Part shown: one piece after another, positions 34,389-46,930 of the stretch
Position numbering within the stretch: the first letter of the stretch is position 1
Layout of the letters: each line of letters opens with the position of its first letter
Origin: Candidatus Neomarinimicrobiota bacterium
GTDB taxonomy: Bacteria; Fidelibacterota; UBA2242; B5-G15
Direction of reading: 5' to 3'
Assembly: GCA_017656425.1 (NCBI GenBank)
Contig: JACDNV010000005.1
Location: forward strand, 122,546 to 186,545
DNA length: 64,000 nt
The notes under the pieces: generated by a model
What the model was told of the DNA's origin: nothing
Databases searched by the model: none
The model's input: only the letters and a program-made list of their open reading frames with translations
Translations under genes and position numbers: made by a program

Positions 34389-35705
34389 ATGAAATACAAA
34401 CTGCTAATTCTTATCCTCTTTATAACACTTTCTATTTTATATTCCCAGACTCGCACAGATCCGAGGGAGATGGCATTATGTGGTGCCTATGCAGTTGAAT
34501 CCCGTGGGCTATTTTCCGTAGGGTATAATCCTGCTAACCTTGCAATAAGACAAGAGAAAGACAGGATTAGAATCATTGGTGGATTTGCTCTAAATATTAA
34601 TAATAATTTTTTAACAATATATCGCTATAGAAAATATAACGGGCAGGATTTTGAAGCTAATAATGGGGCATTAAAAAAGAGTTTCCTTGCTTCTTTACCA
34701 TCATCTGGATGGCGTATTTTTGCTGGATTTCACCTACCGATACCGCTTGTAAACTATTCTTCTGGTAATAAAGCTTTTACCTATGATTTGTTGTTTATAA
34801 CGGATATTGGCATTGCAAAAGATTTAATAAGAGTGTTAATTGATAGTAATCCAATAAATGAGAAACTTGATCTTACGTTAAAGGAAGAGGCAATAGGTAT
34901 TGGTCAATGGGCATTTTCCTTTGGTATCCCATTTGAAAATTTCAATATCGGGTTTTCTTTTAAATATCTTCAGGGGTTAATTTATATGGGGTTTAATCCT
35001 GATTCATCGTATGGATATTTAATTACCTATTTTACGGACGAAAAGAATTATATAGAGGGGGAAGGTTATTATCTTTTCCAGCAGACAATTGGAGGAATGG
35101 GATATAGCTTTGACTTTGGAGTTACCACTAAGCTTATAAATGGATACAGGTTTGGATTATCTATTATCAACCTGTTTGGGAGGATATACTGGAACAAAAG
35201 GGTACTCCTGAATAGCTTACTTGATACTGATGAGATACTATTAATGGATGGTAATTATTATAAGTATGAGTTTAAAATAAATGAGGCACGCTTCGGGAGA
35301 TTTTTTAGAGGTGTATCTTATGATGAGGTATTTAGTGGGAGAGGGACAGAGTTCAAAGATACTACAAAATTCGTTATGAGATACCCAGGTTTATTCAGGA
35401 TAGGATTTAGTAAGAGATTTAATGATGTTGTGATATGCTCTGATATTATAGCTGGTTTCGAGGATCGGCTTTATAGCTTTGGAAAATGGAAATGGGCTAT
35501 AGGATTTGAAATATTGAGAGCTGTTAATCGACCTGTTAGAATTGGCTTTGGTATTGGTGGAAAAGAGATGAGGGAAGTGGCAATAGGTAGTGGTTTTTAT
35601 GGTGGTCTTGTAAATATTGATTGGGCTATAGGGTTCTGCAATAGTATTGTAATAAGAAAAATGCAAGGGATAAAATTTTCTATAATGGTATATACACGAC
35701 GATAA
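34389..35705 (+). CDS. DUF5723-like outer membrane beta-barrel protein, module 2
   Basis: A 438-residue barrel with a signal peptide (ILYSQ cleavage). It starts TRTDPREMALCGAYAVESRG and has VGYNPANLAI, YLQGLIYMGFNPDSSYGYL, FRFGLSIINLFG-like and NIDWAIGFC segments matching its paralogue in module 1, consistent with duplication of a lipoprotein-barrel pair. The stop codon TAA (35703-35705) overlaps the first bases of the 201-bp repeat array, so the array abuts the gene without spacer. It is the last gene of the four-gene unit. Confidence 0.72.
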   Translation: MKYKLLILILFITLSILYSQTRTDPREMALCGAYAVESRGLFSVGYNPANLAIRQEKDRIRIIGGFALNINNNFLTIYRYRKYNGQDFEANNGALKKSFLASLPSSGWRIFAGFHLPIPLVNYSSGNKAFTYDLLFITDIGIAKDLIRVLIDSNPINEKLDLTLKEEAIGIGQWAFSFGIPFENFNIGFSFKYLQGLIYMGFNPDSSYGYLITYFTDEKNYIEGEGYYLFQQTIGGMGYSFDFGVTTKLINGYRFGLSIINLFGRIYWNKRVLLNSLLDTDEILLMDGNYYKYEFKINEARFGRFFRGVSYDEVFSGRGTEFKDTTKFVMRYPGLFRIGFSKRFNDVVICSDIIAGFEDRLYSFGKWKWAIGFEILRAVNRPVRIGFGIGGKEMREVAIGSGFYGGLVNIDWAIGFCNSIVIRKMQGIKFSIMVYTRR

Positions 35706-36897
35706 GCGCAATGTCTCAATGCAGAATGCAGAATGCAAATTGAAAAATGCAAAATCGCCTTTTGTCAGATTTGGCTTTTGTATTCAAAATGTAGACAGAA
35801 ATAAATTTGACTTTTGCACTTTGCAATCTTCATTTTGCAATTGCCGTAAGGCTATCTTGCCCTTCGGGAAATCGCCATCGGCGACTTCGTGAATACAAGA
35901 CGTTAAGCGCAAAGGCTCAATGCAGAATGCAGAATGCAAATTGAAAAATGCAAAATCGTCTTTTGTCAGATTTGGCTTTTGTATTCAGAATGTAGACAGA
36001 AATAAATTTGACTTTTGCATTTTGCAATCTTCATTTTGCAATTGCCGTAAGGCTATCTTACACTTCGGGAAATCGCATTCGGCGACTTCGTTAATACAAG
36101 ACGTTAAGCGCAATGTCTCAATGCAGAATGCAGAATGCAAATTGAAAAATGCAAAATCGTCTTTTGTCAGATTTGGCTTTTGTACTCAAAATGTATACAG
36201 AAATAAATTTGACCTTTGCACATTGCAATCTTCATTTTACAATTGCCGTAAGGCTATCTTGCCCTTTGAGAAATCGCATTCGGCGACTTCGTGAATACAA
36301 GACGTTAAGCGCAAAGGCTCAATGCAGAATGCAGAATGCAAATTGAAAAATGCAAAATCGTCTTTTGTCAGATTTGGCTTTTGTACTCAAAATGTAGACA
36401 GAAATAAATTTGACTTTTGCACTTTGCAATCTTCATTTTGCAATTGCCGTAAGGCTATCTTGCCCTTTGAGAAATCGCATTCGGCGACTTCGTGAATACA
36501 AGACGTTAAGCGCAATGTCTCAATGCAGAATGCAGAATGCAAATTGAAAAATGCAAAATCGTCTTTTGTCAGATTTGGCTTTTGTACTCAAAATGTATAC
36601 AGAAATAAATTTGACCTTTGCACATTGCAATCTTCATTTTGCAATTGCCGTAAGGCTATCTTGCCCTTCGGCGACTTCGTTAATACAAGACGATAATCGC
36701 AATGTCTCAATGCAGAATGCAGAATGCAAATTGAAAAATGCAAAATCGTCTTTTGTCAGATTTGGCTTTTGTACTCAAAATGTAGACAGAAATAAATTTG
36801 ACTTTTGCATTTTGCAATCTTCATTTTGCAATTGCCGTAAGGCTATCTTGCCCTTCGGGAAATCGCCTTCGGCGACTTCGTGAATAAAATACGATAA
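35704..36897. repeat. Six-copy 201-bp tandem repeat array with internal inverted arms
   Basis: Copies start at 35704, 35905, 36106, 36307, 36508 and 36695. Five are 201 bp, and the fifth is 187 bp because of a 14-bp deletion between two TTCGG repeats. Each copy has a left arm TGCAAATTGAAAAATGCAAAAT and, about 60 bases later, an imperfect inverse of it (18 of 22 positions), then a short perfect hairpin TCGCC-TTC-GGCGA in the copies that keep it. ACGATAA occurs at both outer ends (35699-35705, 36891-36897). The array fills the whole space between two convergent stop codons. No unique spacers, so not CRISPR. The open frames inside are by-products of the 201 = 3 x 67 period. Confidence 0.95.
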
Positions 36898-37995: not shown

Positions 37996-38092
37996 AATCT
38001 TATTAATTGGTAAAAATCAGTTAAAATTATCAATTACTTGGTTGATTTAAAATTCATTTCTTTTAATTTATTCGATTAATTTTTTGAGCATT

Positions 38093-39958
38093 ATGATTAA
38101 AAATTTATTTAAACTAATTCTTGTCACAATGTCATTATCATCAGCTATCAGTCCAAGATGGAGTGATGAGTTTCATATAAATTTCCCAAAAATCGTGTTG
38201 AGGAATATCCCATTTAAAGTTGAATTTGAAGTTCCAGATCAATATATACATGAAAGTTTGGTTTATAGAGTTGAGAAGAATATTGATACAGTATTAGTAA
38301 AAAATAAATTTTTTAGTGTAGAAAATTTGATTTTTTCTAAGACTGGAAAGAATATACTTGAAATAACAGCAAAGGATTTCTATAAGAGATATTCTATTCG
38401 CGTTATCCCTGGGTTTATAGCCATTGTCCTTCCGCTGGTTGCGATATTGTTTGCACTTTTGGTAAGGGAGATGATTGTAGCACTATTTACAGGCATTTTT
38501 ATCGGTGTGACAATCATTTATGATTACAATGTTTTTAAAGGATTCCTGTACACTTTGAGTGAATATTTAGTAGAAACGGTGACGAATCAGGAACATGCGA
38601 CAATAATATTGTTTACGCTCTTATTTGGTGGGATGATTGGCGTTATTTCTAAAAATGGTGGTATGAATGGCATTGCTATGTCTGTATCTAAATATGCAAA
38701 TAGTCGTCGTAAAGCTCAGTTAGCAACGCTATTGTTAGGACTATTTATATTTTTTGATGATTACTCGAATACACTGATTGTAGGCAATACAATGAGACCT
38801 TTTACTGATAAAATGAAAATCTCAAGGGAGAAACTTGCATATATCGTAGATTCTACTGCTGCACCAGTTGCATGTTTAGCGTTTATTAGCACATGGTCGG
38901 TTTTCCAGATGAGTCTTCTTGAAATACCTTTTGAAATTTATGGTATTAACAGAAGTCCTTATATAGTTTTTCTAAAATCAATTCCATTTAATTTGTATTG
39001 TTTGTTTGCTATATATGTTGTATTTCTGTTGATCATTTCAAAAAGGGACTTTGGTCCGATGTATGATGCGGAGGTAAGAGCTTATAAAGAGAATAAATTG
39101 TTAAGGGATGATGCCCAACCTTTGATGGATGACTCAAAATTTTATGCTAATAAAATAAAGAGAAAAGAAGGCAAATGGATTGATGGTGCGATACCTATTC
39201 TCGTGGTTATAATTGCAACTGTTATAAGTTTATATTTTACAGGGCTTTCGAATCTGAATGGTAAGTTAAAGAATATCATTAATATAATTGGAAGTTCAGA
39301 TGCTTATTCGAGCCTGTTATGGGCATCGACTGTTGGTGGTATAACGGCGATAATTTTATCTCTTTTTAGAAAACTTTTAACATTGAGGGTGGCTATTGAA
39401 GGATGGTTATTGGGCTTGCGATCTATGTTGCTAGGAGTTATAATACTCGTATTAGCATGGACAATAGGACGGGTTTGTCTTGACCTAAAAACAGCTGATT
39501 ATATAATAAATATAACAAAAAATATTATGAAACCCTGGCTCTTACCTTTTGTTACCTTTACTTCGGCTGCACTTGTGAGTTTTTCCACTGGCACTTCTTG
39601 GGGAACAATGTCGATTCTTGTCCCCCTTATATCACCATTAGCTCTTAGATACACAGATGGTAATCCGGATTCTATAATTTTCCTTTCCAGTTTCGCAGCT
39701 ATATTATCAGGTGCTACATTTGGAGATCATTGCTCGCCCATTTCTGATACGACAATTTTATCCTCAGTGGCTTCGAGTTCAGACCATATTGATCATGTTA
39801 GAACTCAATTACCATATGCGATAACAGTTGCCATTTTTTCTGGTATTCTGGGTTATACTCTATTGGGTTTAGGATTGAATTATTTCATAATAATTTTTAT
39901 TATATCAATGATACTGATTTTAGCTGTTTTTTTAATTGGTAAAGAAATAGATAATTAG
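38093..39958 (+). CDS. NhaC family Na+/H+ antiporter with N-terminal extracytoplasmic domain
   Basis: A membrane protein of 621 residues. After a signal-like segment, about 90 residues (SDEFHINFPKIVLRNIPFKV to YKRYSIRVIPG) form a hydrophilic beta-rich domain, then the antiporter part begins. NhaC features are LFIFFDDYSNTLIVGNTMRPFTD, DSTAAPVACLAFISTW, STGTSWGTMSILVPL and SGATFGDHCSPISDTTILSS. I start at ATG 38093, with a TTG three codons earlier as alternative. The substrate could be a Na+/H+ exchange or an amino-acid/H+ exchange. The CARF gene follows 24 bases later on the same strand. Confidence 0.88.
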   Translation: MIKNLFKLILVTMSLSSAISPRWSDEFHINFPKIVLRNIPFKVEFEVPDQYIHESLVYRVEKNIDTVLVKNKFFSVENLIFSKTGKNILEITAKDFYKRYSIRVIPGFIAIVLPLVAILFALLVREMIVALFTGIFIGVTIIYDYNVFKGFLYTLSEYLVETVTNQEHATIILFTLLFGGMIGVISKNGGMNGIAMSVSKYANSRRKAQLATLLLGLFIFFDDYSNTLIVGNTMRPFTDKMKISREKLAYIVDSTAAPVACLAFISTWSVFQMSLLEIPFEIYGINRSPYIVFLKSIPFNLYCLFAIYVVFLLIISKRDFGPMYDAEVRAYKENKLLRDDAQPLMDDSKFYANKIKRKEGKWIDGAIPILVVIIATVISLYFTGLSNLNGKLKNIINIIGSSDAYSSLLWASTVGGITAIILSLFRKLLTLRVAIEGWLLGLRSMLLGVIILVLAWTIGRVCLDLKTADYIINITKNIMKPWLLPFVTFTSAALVSFSTGTSWGTMSILVPLISPLALRYTDGNPDSIIFLSSFAAILSGATFGDHCSPISDTTILSSVASSSDHIDHVRTQLPYAITVAIFSGILGYTLLGLGLNYFIIIFIISMILILAVFLIGKEIDN

Positions 39959-39982: not shown

Positions 39983-41065
39983 ATGCCTTTGTTAGAAGTT
40001 TGTATTGTAAATGATAGTCCAGTAGCGAATTATATAGGAAACCTATTAAAAAAACCTGATGCGGTGGTCTGGATTAAGATGCCGGGGCAAAAAAATAAGA
40101 TATCTAATTTGGAGAGTGTTCTAAGCACTCAGATAAAAGCAGAATTTGAGACCCGAGAGGTTCAGCCAGGAGATATCCATGATTTTATAAAAGTATGCGA
40201 GCAGATTATAAAGGACTACCCACAGTACGATATAATATTGAATGCTTCCGGTGGTGACAGGATTCAGGCGATACTTGCCTACGATATTTTTATGAATGCA
40301 GGGAAAGAAGTTATATTGGTAGATACGGATCATTCCAGAATAGTTGATTTGAAATCCAAGGAAGTTAAATCTTTTCATGCAGCACTTACTGTGAATGAAT
40401 ATGCTGCACTATACGGTGTGAAAGTTTTATCAGGTACACGCTTTGATCCAGAGATTGGGAAGAGAAGTAGTTTGACATATTTTTTGGGAAATAATATAGA
40501 GAAGATTGTTCTTTTCATAGATAAGGTAAGAGCAGAGTGGAATGAACTGGGAGAAGAAAAACCTTCCAGACAGTGGAAACTGAATGATCGTTTCATAAAA
40601 TTTACTATTAATTATGATGCTGAAAAAAAGGCGATGAAATTTAGGTATGGTCAGCAAGACAACGTTAAAACCTGTGAGATAGGAGGAAATGCCTATTCAT
40701 ATATTTTCAATGGTGGATGGTTGAGGGAGCTGGTTTTTCTCAGAGTGCATAGGTCTCAATATGATGATATAAGACTTGATGTTAAGCTTGACAGAAGCTC
40801 TCACTCACTTAGTCCAAAGGCAGAAGCAATTATTGATATCGCAATGCTAAGAGGGTGTAAATTTTATATATTTCAATGTTTTTCCTATCCTATAACAAGG
40901 GAATCTTTTATAGCCTTGAGATCTATTATTCATACAATAAATTTATTTAATGCTCAAGGTTATATATTCGTATCACATCAGCCAAATAGAAGTTTTATAG
41001 AAAATGCACGTGACAATGGTCTTCACGTAATTTCGGGAAAGTACATTGCAAACTTTAATATTTAA
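39983..41065 (+). CDS. CARF-domain protein resembling Card1/DUF1887 with a degenerate nuclease domain
   Basis: A 360-residue soluble protein. The N-terminal half (1-150) looks like a CARF ligand-binding domain: YDIILNASGGDR at 82-93, followed by IQAILAYDIFMNAGKEV, lines up with the NxTGGTKxM loop of Card1/Can2-type proteins as I recall them. The C-terminal half starts with GGWLRELVF (244-252), has D285 in EAIIDIAML, and then FQCF (297-300) where the PD-(D/E)xK nuclease motif should read ECK. So E and K are replaced by Q298 and F300. The tail NARDNGLHVISG also matches. No CRISPR array or cas gene is in the window. It may bind a cyclic nucleotide without cutting. Confidence 0.7.
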   Translation: MPLLEVCIVNDSPVANYIGNLLKKPDAVVWIKMPGQKNKISNLESVLSTQIKAEFETREVQPGDIHDFIKVCEQIIKDYPQYDIILNASGGDRIQAILAYDIFMNAGKEVILVDTDHSRIVDLKSKEVKSFHAALTVNEYAALYGVKVLSGTRFDPEIGKRSSLTYFLGNNIEKIVLFIDKVRAEWNELGEEKPSRQWKLNDRFIKFTINYDAEKKAMKFRYGQQDNVKTCEIGGNAYSYIFNGGWLRELVFLRVHRSQYDDIRLDVKLDRSSHSLSPKAEAIIDIAMLRGCKFYIFQCFSYPITRESFIALRSIIHTINLFNAQGYIFVSHQPNRSFIENARDNGLHVISGKYIANFNI

Positions 41066-41925
41066 AAAAGTGTAATAAGCAATCCACCAGTTAATATAAT
41101 TATACCACCAATTAATCTTTCTTTTATATTCTTTTCATTAAAAAATATCCAGCCAAACAGGATGGCAAAAAGAAGTGAGAAGCGTTTTAAAGAAATCATG
41201 TATGCAACCTGAATTTTTGAAATAGCTATAAAGTGAGTGATAGCCATTATCGCCATAAAAATTCCAATCATAATGTAGCTTTTGCTTCTTTTTAATATTT
41301 TTATATTCTTTTTTTTCGCCTCCATTATCGCAATTGGGGTAAAGAATATAGCAAGTAATGTAAAATAAAATGTCGACATAATAATAGCGTTGGAGTGTTG
41401 AATAGCTAGTTTCCCCAAGGTACCGGTAATTGAATATATTATTGCTACTAAAAACATTAGGAGTGAACCTTTATTCTTAAATATCGCTTTAAATGGTTCT
41501 AAAAAGCCATATCTAGCTCTATCAAGCTGGAGTATGTAAGTCCCCAGTGATACAAGAATCACACCGATGATCCCGTTGACAGAAAGAGTTTCGCCAAGAA
41601 TTATTCTGGGTAGAAATAGTAAAAATATAGGTGTTAGTCCGAGATAGGGGACCGTAAGAGACAGAGGTGCCACTTTTATAGCATACATATACATATATGT
41701 TGATAGTAAATCCATGGCTACGCACAGAATAATAGCGATCCAGAAGGTTAGATCGAGTGATGGTATTTTGGTAAAGAAGAGTGTAGGGAGTAAAAAGGGT
41801 AAAGCAAATGCCTCACGTACCCATGCTATGATCAATGGTGATGAGAATTGAGATTCTTTCTTTGATACTGTGTCGGCAGCAGCAAAAAATAAACCTGATG
41901 TGATTGATAATATGTACCAGATCAT
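41062..41925 (-). CDS. EamA/DMT family transporter
   Basis: A 287-residue inner-membrane protein with about ten hydrophobic helices arranged as two EamA repeats, from the N terminus (ILSITSGLFFAAADTVSKK) to VILVSLGTYIL and from LGKLAIQHSNAI to IIILTGGLLITLF. It belongs to the drug/metabolite transporter superfamily. The helix VAYMISLKRFSLLFAILFGWIFFNEK is the usual end of the second repeat. It is convergent with the CARF gene and the two stop codons overlap by four bases. Substrate unknown. Confidence 0.85.
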   Translation of the reverse strand: MIWYILSITSGLFFAAADTVSKKESQFSSPLIIAWVREAFALPFLLPTLFFTKIPSLDLTFWIAIILCVAMDLLSTYMYMYAIKVAPLSLTVPYLGLTPIFLLFLPRIILGETLSVNGIIGVILVSLGTYILQLDRARYGFLEPFKAIFKNKGSLLMFLVAIIYSITGTLGKLAIQHSNAIIMSTFYFTLLAIFFTPIAIMEAKKKNIKILKRSKSYIMIGIFMAIMAITHFIAISKIQVAYMISLKRFSLLFAILFGWIFFNEKNIKERLIGGIIILTGGLLITLF

Positions 41926-46555: not shown

Positions 46556-46930
46556 ATGCAAATTGAAAAATGCCAAAATAGAAGCGATTTATCAGAACGG
46601 CTATTAGAGTTCGCAGCAAGTAGCATTAAATTGACAGTTAGACTTAAAAGGACTGCTGTGGGACGGTACATAGCAAATCAGCTAATGCGAGCTGCTTCGT
46701 CTTCTGGGGCAAATTATGAAGAGGCATGTGGAGCAGAAAGTAGAGCCGATTTTATAGATAAGATGCAACTCGTCTTGAAGGAATTACGAGAGTCTTTATA
46801 TTGGCTGAAACTGGTGGAGAGAAGCGACTTAATTTCTGGCAATGAGCTACAACCATTATTGGCTGAATCAAACGAATTGATCAAAATTGTTGCAAAATCG
46901 GTAATCACTGCGAAAGGAGGGGGAAAATGA
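46556..46930 (+). CDS. Four-helix-bundle protein (S23/IVS family, TIGR02436)
   Basis: A 124-residue protein of the four-helix-bundle family first seen as the 23S rRNA intervening-sequence protein and related to the Avd accessory protein of diversity-generating retroelements. Helical family features are LSERLLEFAASSIKL, VGRYIANQLMRAASSSGANYEEACGAESRADFIDKM and ELRESLYWLKLVERS. Its start codon and first six codons lie in repeat sequence (MQIEKC), and there is no visible ribosome-binding site. No reverse transcriptase is nearby, so no retroelement is claimed. It likely belongs to the surrounding element. Confidence 0.85.
   Translation: MQIEKCQNRSDLSERLLEFAASSIKLTVRLKRTAVGRYIANQLMRAASSSGANYEEACGAESRADFIDKMQLVLKELRESLYWLKLVERSDLISGNELQPLLAESNELIKIVAKSVITAKGGGK

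Follow-up and report, generated by a model that had tools for sequence, protein, structure and literature searches.

Most of what is known about CARF proteins concerns their role as effectors of CRISPR signalling, and the described proteins closest to the one considered here are Can2 and Card1. In Can2, residues Ser19, Thr42, Lys99 and Tyr118 contact the activator cA4 and the catalytic site includes the E276-x-D278 motif (PMC7969007). The remaining Can2 residues used for comparison, E291 and K293, were located by counting on the Can2 sequence. Equivalents of all four catalytic residues have been described in Can1, and a second Can1 domain (domain 2, 6sce) is a nuclease-like one that is missing the canonical active-site residues and contributes to DNA binding (PMC6981274). 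VC1899, which carries Asp9 and Arg96 in its CARF pocket, is an orphan CARF protein that is not regulated by cA4 and retains a weak residual RNase activity (PMC7969007).

Domain architecture and homology

The window, meaning the whole 64,000-nucleotide stretch of DNA that was analysed, contains an intact ORF with an ATG start that encodes a 360-residue protein with a CARF domain and a nuclease-like domain. This protein belongs to an order-wide family of orthologues, referred to as the QCF family after the residues that occupy its former active site. The features of the gene are as follows.

39983 to 41065, plus strand: CARF and nuclease-like protein (QCF family), 360 aa
39983 to 40384, plus strand: CARF (Rossmann) domain, residues ~1-134, matched by PF23400; conservation far below that of the nuclease-like part
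40439 to 40468, plus strand: RFDPEIGKRS motif of the linker, residues 153-162, almost invariant within the family and specific to it; modelled with low confidence
40688 to 41044, plus strand: PD-(D/E)xK-like domain, residues ~236-354, assigned from PF09002 in orthologues and from structure matches; old active site replaced
40712 to 40729, plus strand: GGWLRE motif, residues 244-249, with invariant R248 instead of the helix Glu
40823 to 40837, plus strand: E281 to D285; D285 is the only catalytic-site acid kept and the Glu position of E-x-D is I283
40874 to 40882, plus strand: Q298-C299-F300 in place of E-C-K (codons CAA TGT TTT)

The original prediction, made from the sequence alone, had assigned this protein a Card1-type layout in which a CARF domain is followed by a C-terminal nuclease-like domain. 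The motifs on which it relied were all found (YDIILNASGGDR at residues 82-93, GGWLRELVF at 244-252, D285 and Q298-C299-F300), and the layout is backed by Pfam, PADLOC, a PDB sequence search and AlphaFold/Foldseek. The Pfam CARF_Card1 domain (PF23400) scored 30.4 bits in the window protein, above its cut-off of 24.6, and matched 19 of the 20 orthologues. The Card1_endonuc domain (PF09002) reached 19.7 bits in the window protein, under its cut-off of 26.4, and passed the cut-off in five orthologues (G206, G207, G208, G211 and G218). The PADLOC CARF4-PDDEXK profile gave 112.8 bits for the window protein, and the PDB sequence search returned Can2 (7bdv, 5.5e-18) followed by Card1 (6wxw, 3e-4).

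The AlphaFold model, built from the 20-sequence alignment, has a mean pLDDT of 81, with values of about 90 or more in the CARF domain and low confidence at residues 255-263 and 278-282, in the region of the former active site. Foldseek matched the model to Can2, VC1899 and Cdn1 across both domains with E-values down to 1e-20, and VIA structural alignment to the same three proteins gave Z-scores of approximately 26-27 over 313-342 residues. The nuclease-like domain modelled in isolation had a pLDDT of 67 and no significant structure match. The RFDPEIGKRS linker motif is absent from the comparison homologues, so that among these sequences only the family has it. Descent of the window protein from the Can2/Card1 (DUF1887) CARF nucleases is supported by these results.

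Former nuclease active site

Where active Card1-type proteins have E-C-K, the protein had been noted to carry Q298-C299-F300, with the Glu and Lys of E-x-K lost. Conservation mapping bears this out, as both Q298 and F300 are invariant in the 20 aligned orthologues. A sequencing error at this site was rejected because the entire Q298-C299-F300 triplet is invariant in all 20. The replacement is also wider than had been noted, with two more acids of the catalytic site gone and their loss fixed across the order. R248 is invariant (20/20) where the Glu of the 'WLE' helix is expected, a Glu that follows G-x-W-F/L in Can2, Card1 and VC1899, and the Glu position of E-x-D is hydrophobic in every orthologue (I, M or L at 283, 20/20). 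D285 is invariant in all 20, and the active-site register is fixed by its spacing of 13 residues to Q298, which equals that between D278 and E291 of Can2. The catalytic E-x-D...E-x-K set is therefore absent from the family, three of its four canonical residues and the helix Glu having been replaced (R248, I/M/L283, Q298 and F300).

All comparison homologues used have a Glu at the position of R248 and an E-x-D upstream of the E-x-K position. Two CRISPR-linked relatives are altered at E-x-K itself (T-S-C-T in genome G201 and I-S-C-S in Nostoc) and keep both E-x-D and the helix Glu. An altered E-x-K by itself therefore occurs outside the QCF family as well; the full replacement of the site was confined to the QCF family among the sequences compared. 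The altered G201 protein is a CRISPR-linked CARF PD-(D/E)xK protein (L065:5666-6934), and the same genome also encodes a QCF protein.

These substitutions bear on whether the protein is an ordinary ancillary CRISPR nuclease of the Can2/Card1 kind. Its domain order and fold are the same and its best matches are Can2 and Card1, but every orthologue has its catalytic residues replaced, cas genes are missing from the neighbourhood and the gene is distributed across the order as a core gene, which makes such a role very improbable. An unlikely but more serious alternative is that the protein remains a nuclease whose site has been rearranged, so that D285, Q298, E249 or E281 would act together with a basic residue in a new place, R248 or R254 for example. 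In D-QxK enzymes a Gln occupies the corresponding catalytic position. E249, E281, D285, Q298, R248 and R254 are all invariant, as is a further basic residue of the nuclease-like domain, R264; constraint is strongest around the old active site, and the G201 and Nostoc relatives are precedents for CRISPR-linked proteins with an altered E-x-K. Against a rearranged site, an invariant Phe stands where the Lys would be, the helix Glu has become Arg and the E-x-D Glu is hydrophobic, so that the usual metal ligands have been removed.

Constraint and selection

The nuclease-like half of the protein is under strong purifying selection, and it is held more tightly than the CARF half. Among the 20 orthologues, mean pairwise identity is 62% in the nuclease-like domain vs 45% in the CARF domain, and 22 of 125 positions are invariant in the nuclease-like part vs 3 of 134 in the CARF part. 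For most close pairs, the dN/dS of the nuclease-like domain falls at approximately 0.03-0.09; the pair L012/L013, which is among the closest and has few changes, gave 0.24. ORFs are intact at all full-length loci. Loss of the canonical catalytic residues might suggest a functionless, decaying relic of a CRISPR nuclease, but a protein whose nuclease-like domain is more conserved than its CARF domain, with low dN/dS, is not decaying. The intact ORFs and the invariant positions likewise speak for purifying selection, which refutes this reading and leaves it with almost no probability.

CARF pocket

Alignment with Can2 places the cA4-contact positions of the window protein at N10, D11, S12, M33, R93, L112 and T115. 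Position 10, corresponding to Ser19 of Can2, is Asp or Asn in all orthologues, and position 33 is Thr in nine of the 20. Position 93, corresponding to Lys99, is Arg in 13, Gln in four and Lys in three, and position 112 is Tyr in nine and Phe in six, with other residues in the remainder. The cA4-contact residues of Can2 are not conserved as a set in the QCF family, a pattern still compatible with binding of a cyclic oligoadenylate (cOA). Judged by these residues, the QCF-family pocket looks more like that of VC1899 than that of Can2. The original prediction had suggested that the protein may be a cyclic-oligonucleotide receptor, a role that these residues leave as a possibility only.

Distribution and inheritance

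The QCF protein is encoded once per genome in 21 of the 23 genomes of one order of Candidatus Neomarinimicrobiota, the copy in G208 being split across two contigs. The two genomes of the order without the gene also lack a close homologue of its EamA-family neighbour, and this joint absence likely reflects assembly gaps in both. Profile A1, searched against the rest of the phylum, 392 relatives and about 150 further genomes, found no full-length orthologue outside the order. The only clear match there was a CRISPR-linked protein in G241 with E-C-K intact, accompanied by two marginal partial matches. The gene was also considered as a horizontally spreading defence gene and rejected as such, the window protein having no match in plasmids, phages or viral contigs. 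The best reading is of a gene that is near-universal and vertically inherited in an order of marine-type bacteria. No such family was described in the literature searched, a search outside which the CARF classification paper PMC7498327 fell.

In conjugative enterobacterial plasmids (L077:978-13023 and L079:1-6447), the gene of a DUF1887 CARF protein with E-C-K intact clusters with genes for AAA ATPase, PP2C phosphatase and kinase, joined in L077 by a VWA gene. Here an active-type CARF nuclease is encoded outside a CRISPR context.

Relationship to CRISPR systems

The original prediction stated that no CRISPR system was in view. This holds for the portion of the window that was examined, as no cas gene was found among the ORFs around the gene and no CRISPR-like array among tandem repeats over the whole window; it does not hold for the organism, whose genome carries both a type I-B and a type III-B system. 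The I-B locus (L028:6212-19988, on contig C10 of genome G000) encodes Cas8b, Cas7, Cas5b, Cas3 and Cas1; after it comes a CRISPR array, approximately 77 repeats of which lie in the stretch read (GTTTTAAGCCTACCTATGAGGAATTGAAAC). Upstream of this locus, at L028:3168-3541, are three repeat copies containing CGTTGCGAGCGTAAGCGAAGCAATCTGC, spaced 158 bp apart.

The III-B genes cmr1 and cmr4-6 lie at contig ends. At the end of contig C10 (L059:5782-7468), cmr1 matches the MntA antitoxin family in its C-terminal part (366-431; 41.4 bits, under the cut-off of 60 bits), and the short space between it and the contig end holds a 141-aa ORF of HEPN/HepT-like appearance by eye. PF22335 gave no Cas10 match in this genome, and a candidate at L063:1780-4353 was rejected, showing a weak CorA match. 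Because the III-B module is cut by contig ends, Cas10 may nevertheless exist there, and the Cas10 and Cmr3 genes probably lie in the gap between contigs C10 and C12.

Across the order, RAMP genes occur in nine of the 23 genomes vs 21 of 23 for the QCF gene, and the Cas10 palm domain exceeds its cut-off in four of the 23. Among the 12 good-quality genomes, the QCF gene is present in ten and RAMPs in three, and seven have the QCF gene with no RAMP or Cas10 match. No cas genes were found near the gene at any of the 20 loci. This distribution agrees with the earlier suggestion that the gene is not linked to CRISPR.

A cOA receptor working with type III CRISPR could nevertheless act as a decoy, sponge or modulator, binding Cas10-made cOA and damping or redirecting the response without cutting. 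The CARF fold is kept, the own genome has a III-B module and RAMP genes are found in nine genomes of the order; in the window's own species, the protein may have a CRISPR link through this module. For the family as a whole such a role is improbable, given a gene that far outnumbers type III systems and is nowhere beside cas genes, a Lys99 position that varies between Arg, Gln and Lys, a Ser19 position that is Asp or Asn throughout, and conservation that is equal in genomes without Cas10.

Gene neighbourhood

Two genes flank the CARF gene in the window.

38084 to 39958, plus strand: Na+/H+ antiporter-family gene (PF03553), 24 bp upstream of the CARF gene
41062 to 41925, minus strand: EamA transporter gene, convergent with the CARF gene

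The upstream gene had been called an NhaC antiporter. Its assignment to the antiporter family stands (PF03553, 179 bits), but the NhaC equivalog scored 39.6 vs a cut-off of 370, and the label 'NhaC' is approximate. The antiporter gene adjoins the CARF gene only in the window's own family of the order, with a fragment upstream in G200 only. The original prediction had proposed a search for a conserved neighbourhood of orthologues; this is found on the downstream side, where EamA is convergent at 17 of 20 loci, and not on the upstream side, where genes vary between families. No other conserved partner gene was found at the 20 loci.

In family f4, the CARF gene lies 3' of the alpha operon (rpsM-rpsK-rpsD-rpoA-rplQ) at nine of 13 loci, and the contigs of the other four end short of the operon. 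RpoA, S4 and L17 were confirmed by Pfam and the remainder of the operon was read from the sequence. Between operon and CARF gene are GHL10, lysine aminomutase, GNAT, ATP-grasp and HlyIII genes in varying combination. The synteny is conserved while the upstream gene changes, which speaks for vertical inheritance and against an operon partner. Because upstream genes differ between families, a functional operon with the antiporter was rejected and little can be read into the NhaC-like neighbour. Scans for promoters and terminators gave matches at chance level only. Within the window there is also a tandem array at 35692-36897 (period of approximately 201 bp, 6.1 copies, 92% identity); the short predicted ORFs within it (family F19, also found near 46927) look spurious.

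Proposed function

The non-CRISPR role raised in the original prediction is supported by the residue replacement, the distribution without type III and the lack of cas neighbours, and the QCF protein probably now serves some purpose other than CRISPR nucleic-acid cutting. The explanation that is somewhat favoured is a CRISPR-independent, ancient offshoot of Can2/Card1 that has lost its CRISPR coupling and metal-dependent cutting site and has been kept as a core, non-cutting regulator. Such a protein would form a dimer through its CARF domain, like Can2. Its CARF pocket might sense a nucleotide-type ligand other than, or besides, cA4, or might only hold the dimer together. The old nucleic-acid cleft, its metal site gone, could bind DNA, RNA or a protein partner, and the protein would then act as a regulator rather than a cutter, with or without control by a CARF ligand.

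More tentatively, a single recruitment into the core physiology of the order can be suggested, in which the cleft, rebuilt with R248, D285, Q298 and F300, would serve a non-cutting sensor-regulator. A tie to translation or RNA control is possible because the gene follows the alpha operon of ribosomal-protein genes in one family. If the non-cutting reading is true, the family would illustrate the passage of a defence effector into housekeeping regulation, its nuclease site having been rebuilt and not simply lost to decay. The QCF family provides a defined residue set and a host range in which to seek a non-CRISPR CARF ligand.

Comparison with known systems

The QCF protein shares its domain order and full-length fold with Can2 (Sulfobacillus, 7bdv; Dysgonamonadaceae, 8bao; Z 27). 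Sulfobacillus Can2 also shares the LTV-x-x-Y motif after the CARF domain and the G-G-W motif, and Can2 has the Asp before the E-x-K strand in common with it. Sulfobacillus Can2 is activated by cA4 and has E276-x-D278 and E291-C-K293, whereas the QCF protein has I283, D285, Q298, F300 and R248, and no type III linkage. VC1899 of Vibrio cholerae (1xmx) is likewise without a type III link, matches the full-length fold with a Z-score of 27.1, and has an Asp/Asn at the Ser19 position and an Arg at the Lys99 position; unlike the QCF family, it keeps NELD...ECK and the helix Glu. Card1 (6wxw, 6xl1) and Cdn1 (9u49) have the CARF4-type CARF domain and the PD-(D/E)xK fold in common with the QCF protein, but differ in having an active metal site and in being found with type III systems, and the RFDPEIG-x-RS motif in the QCF-family linker is distinct from both. 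Domain 2 of Can1 provides a precedent within the same lineage for a nuclease-like domain without the canonical residues; the Can1 chain carries an active nuclease domain as well, whereas the QCF protein has only the one nuclease-like domain.
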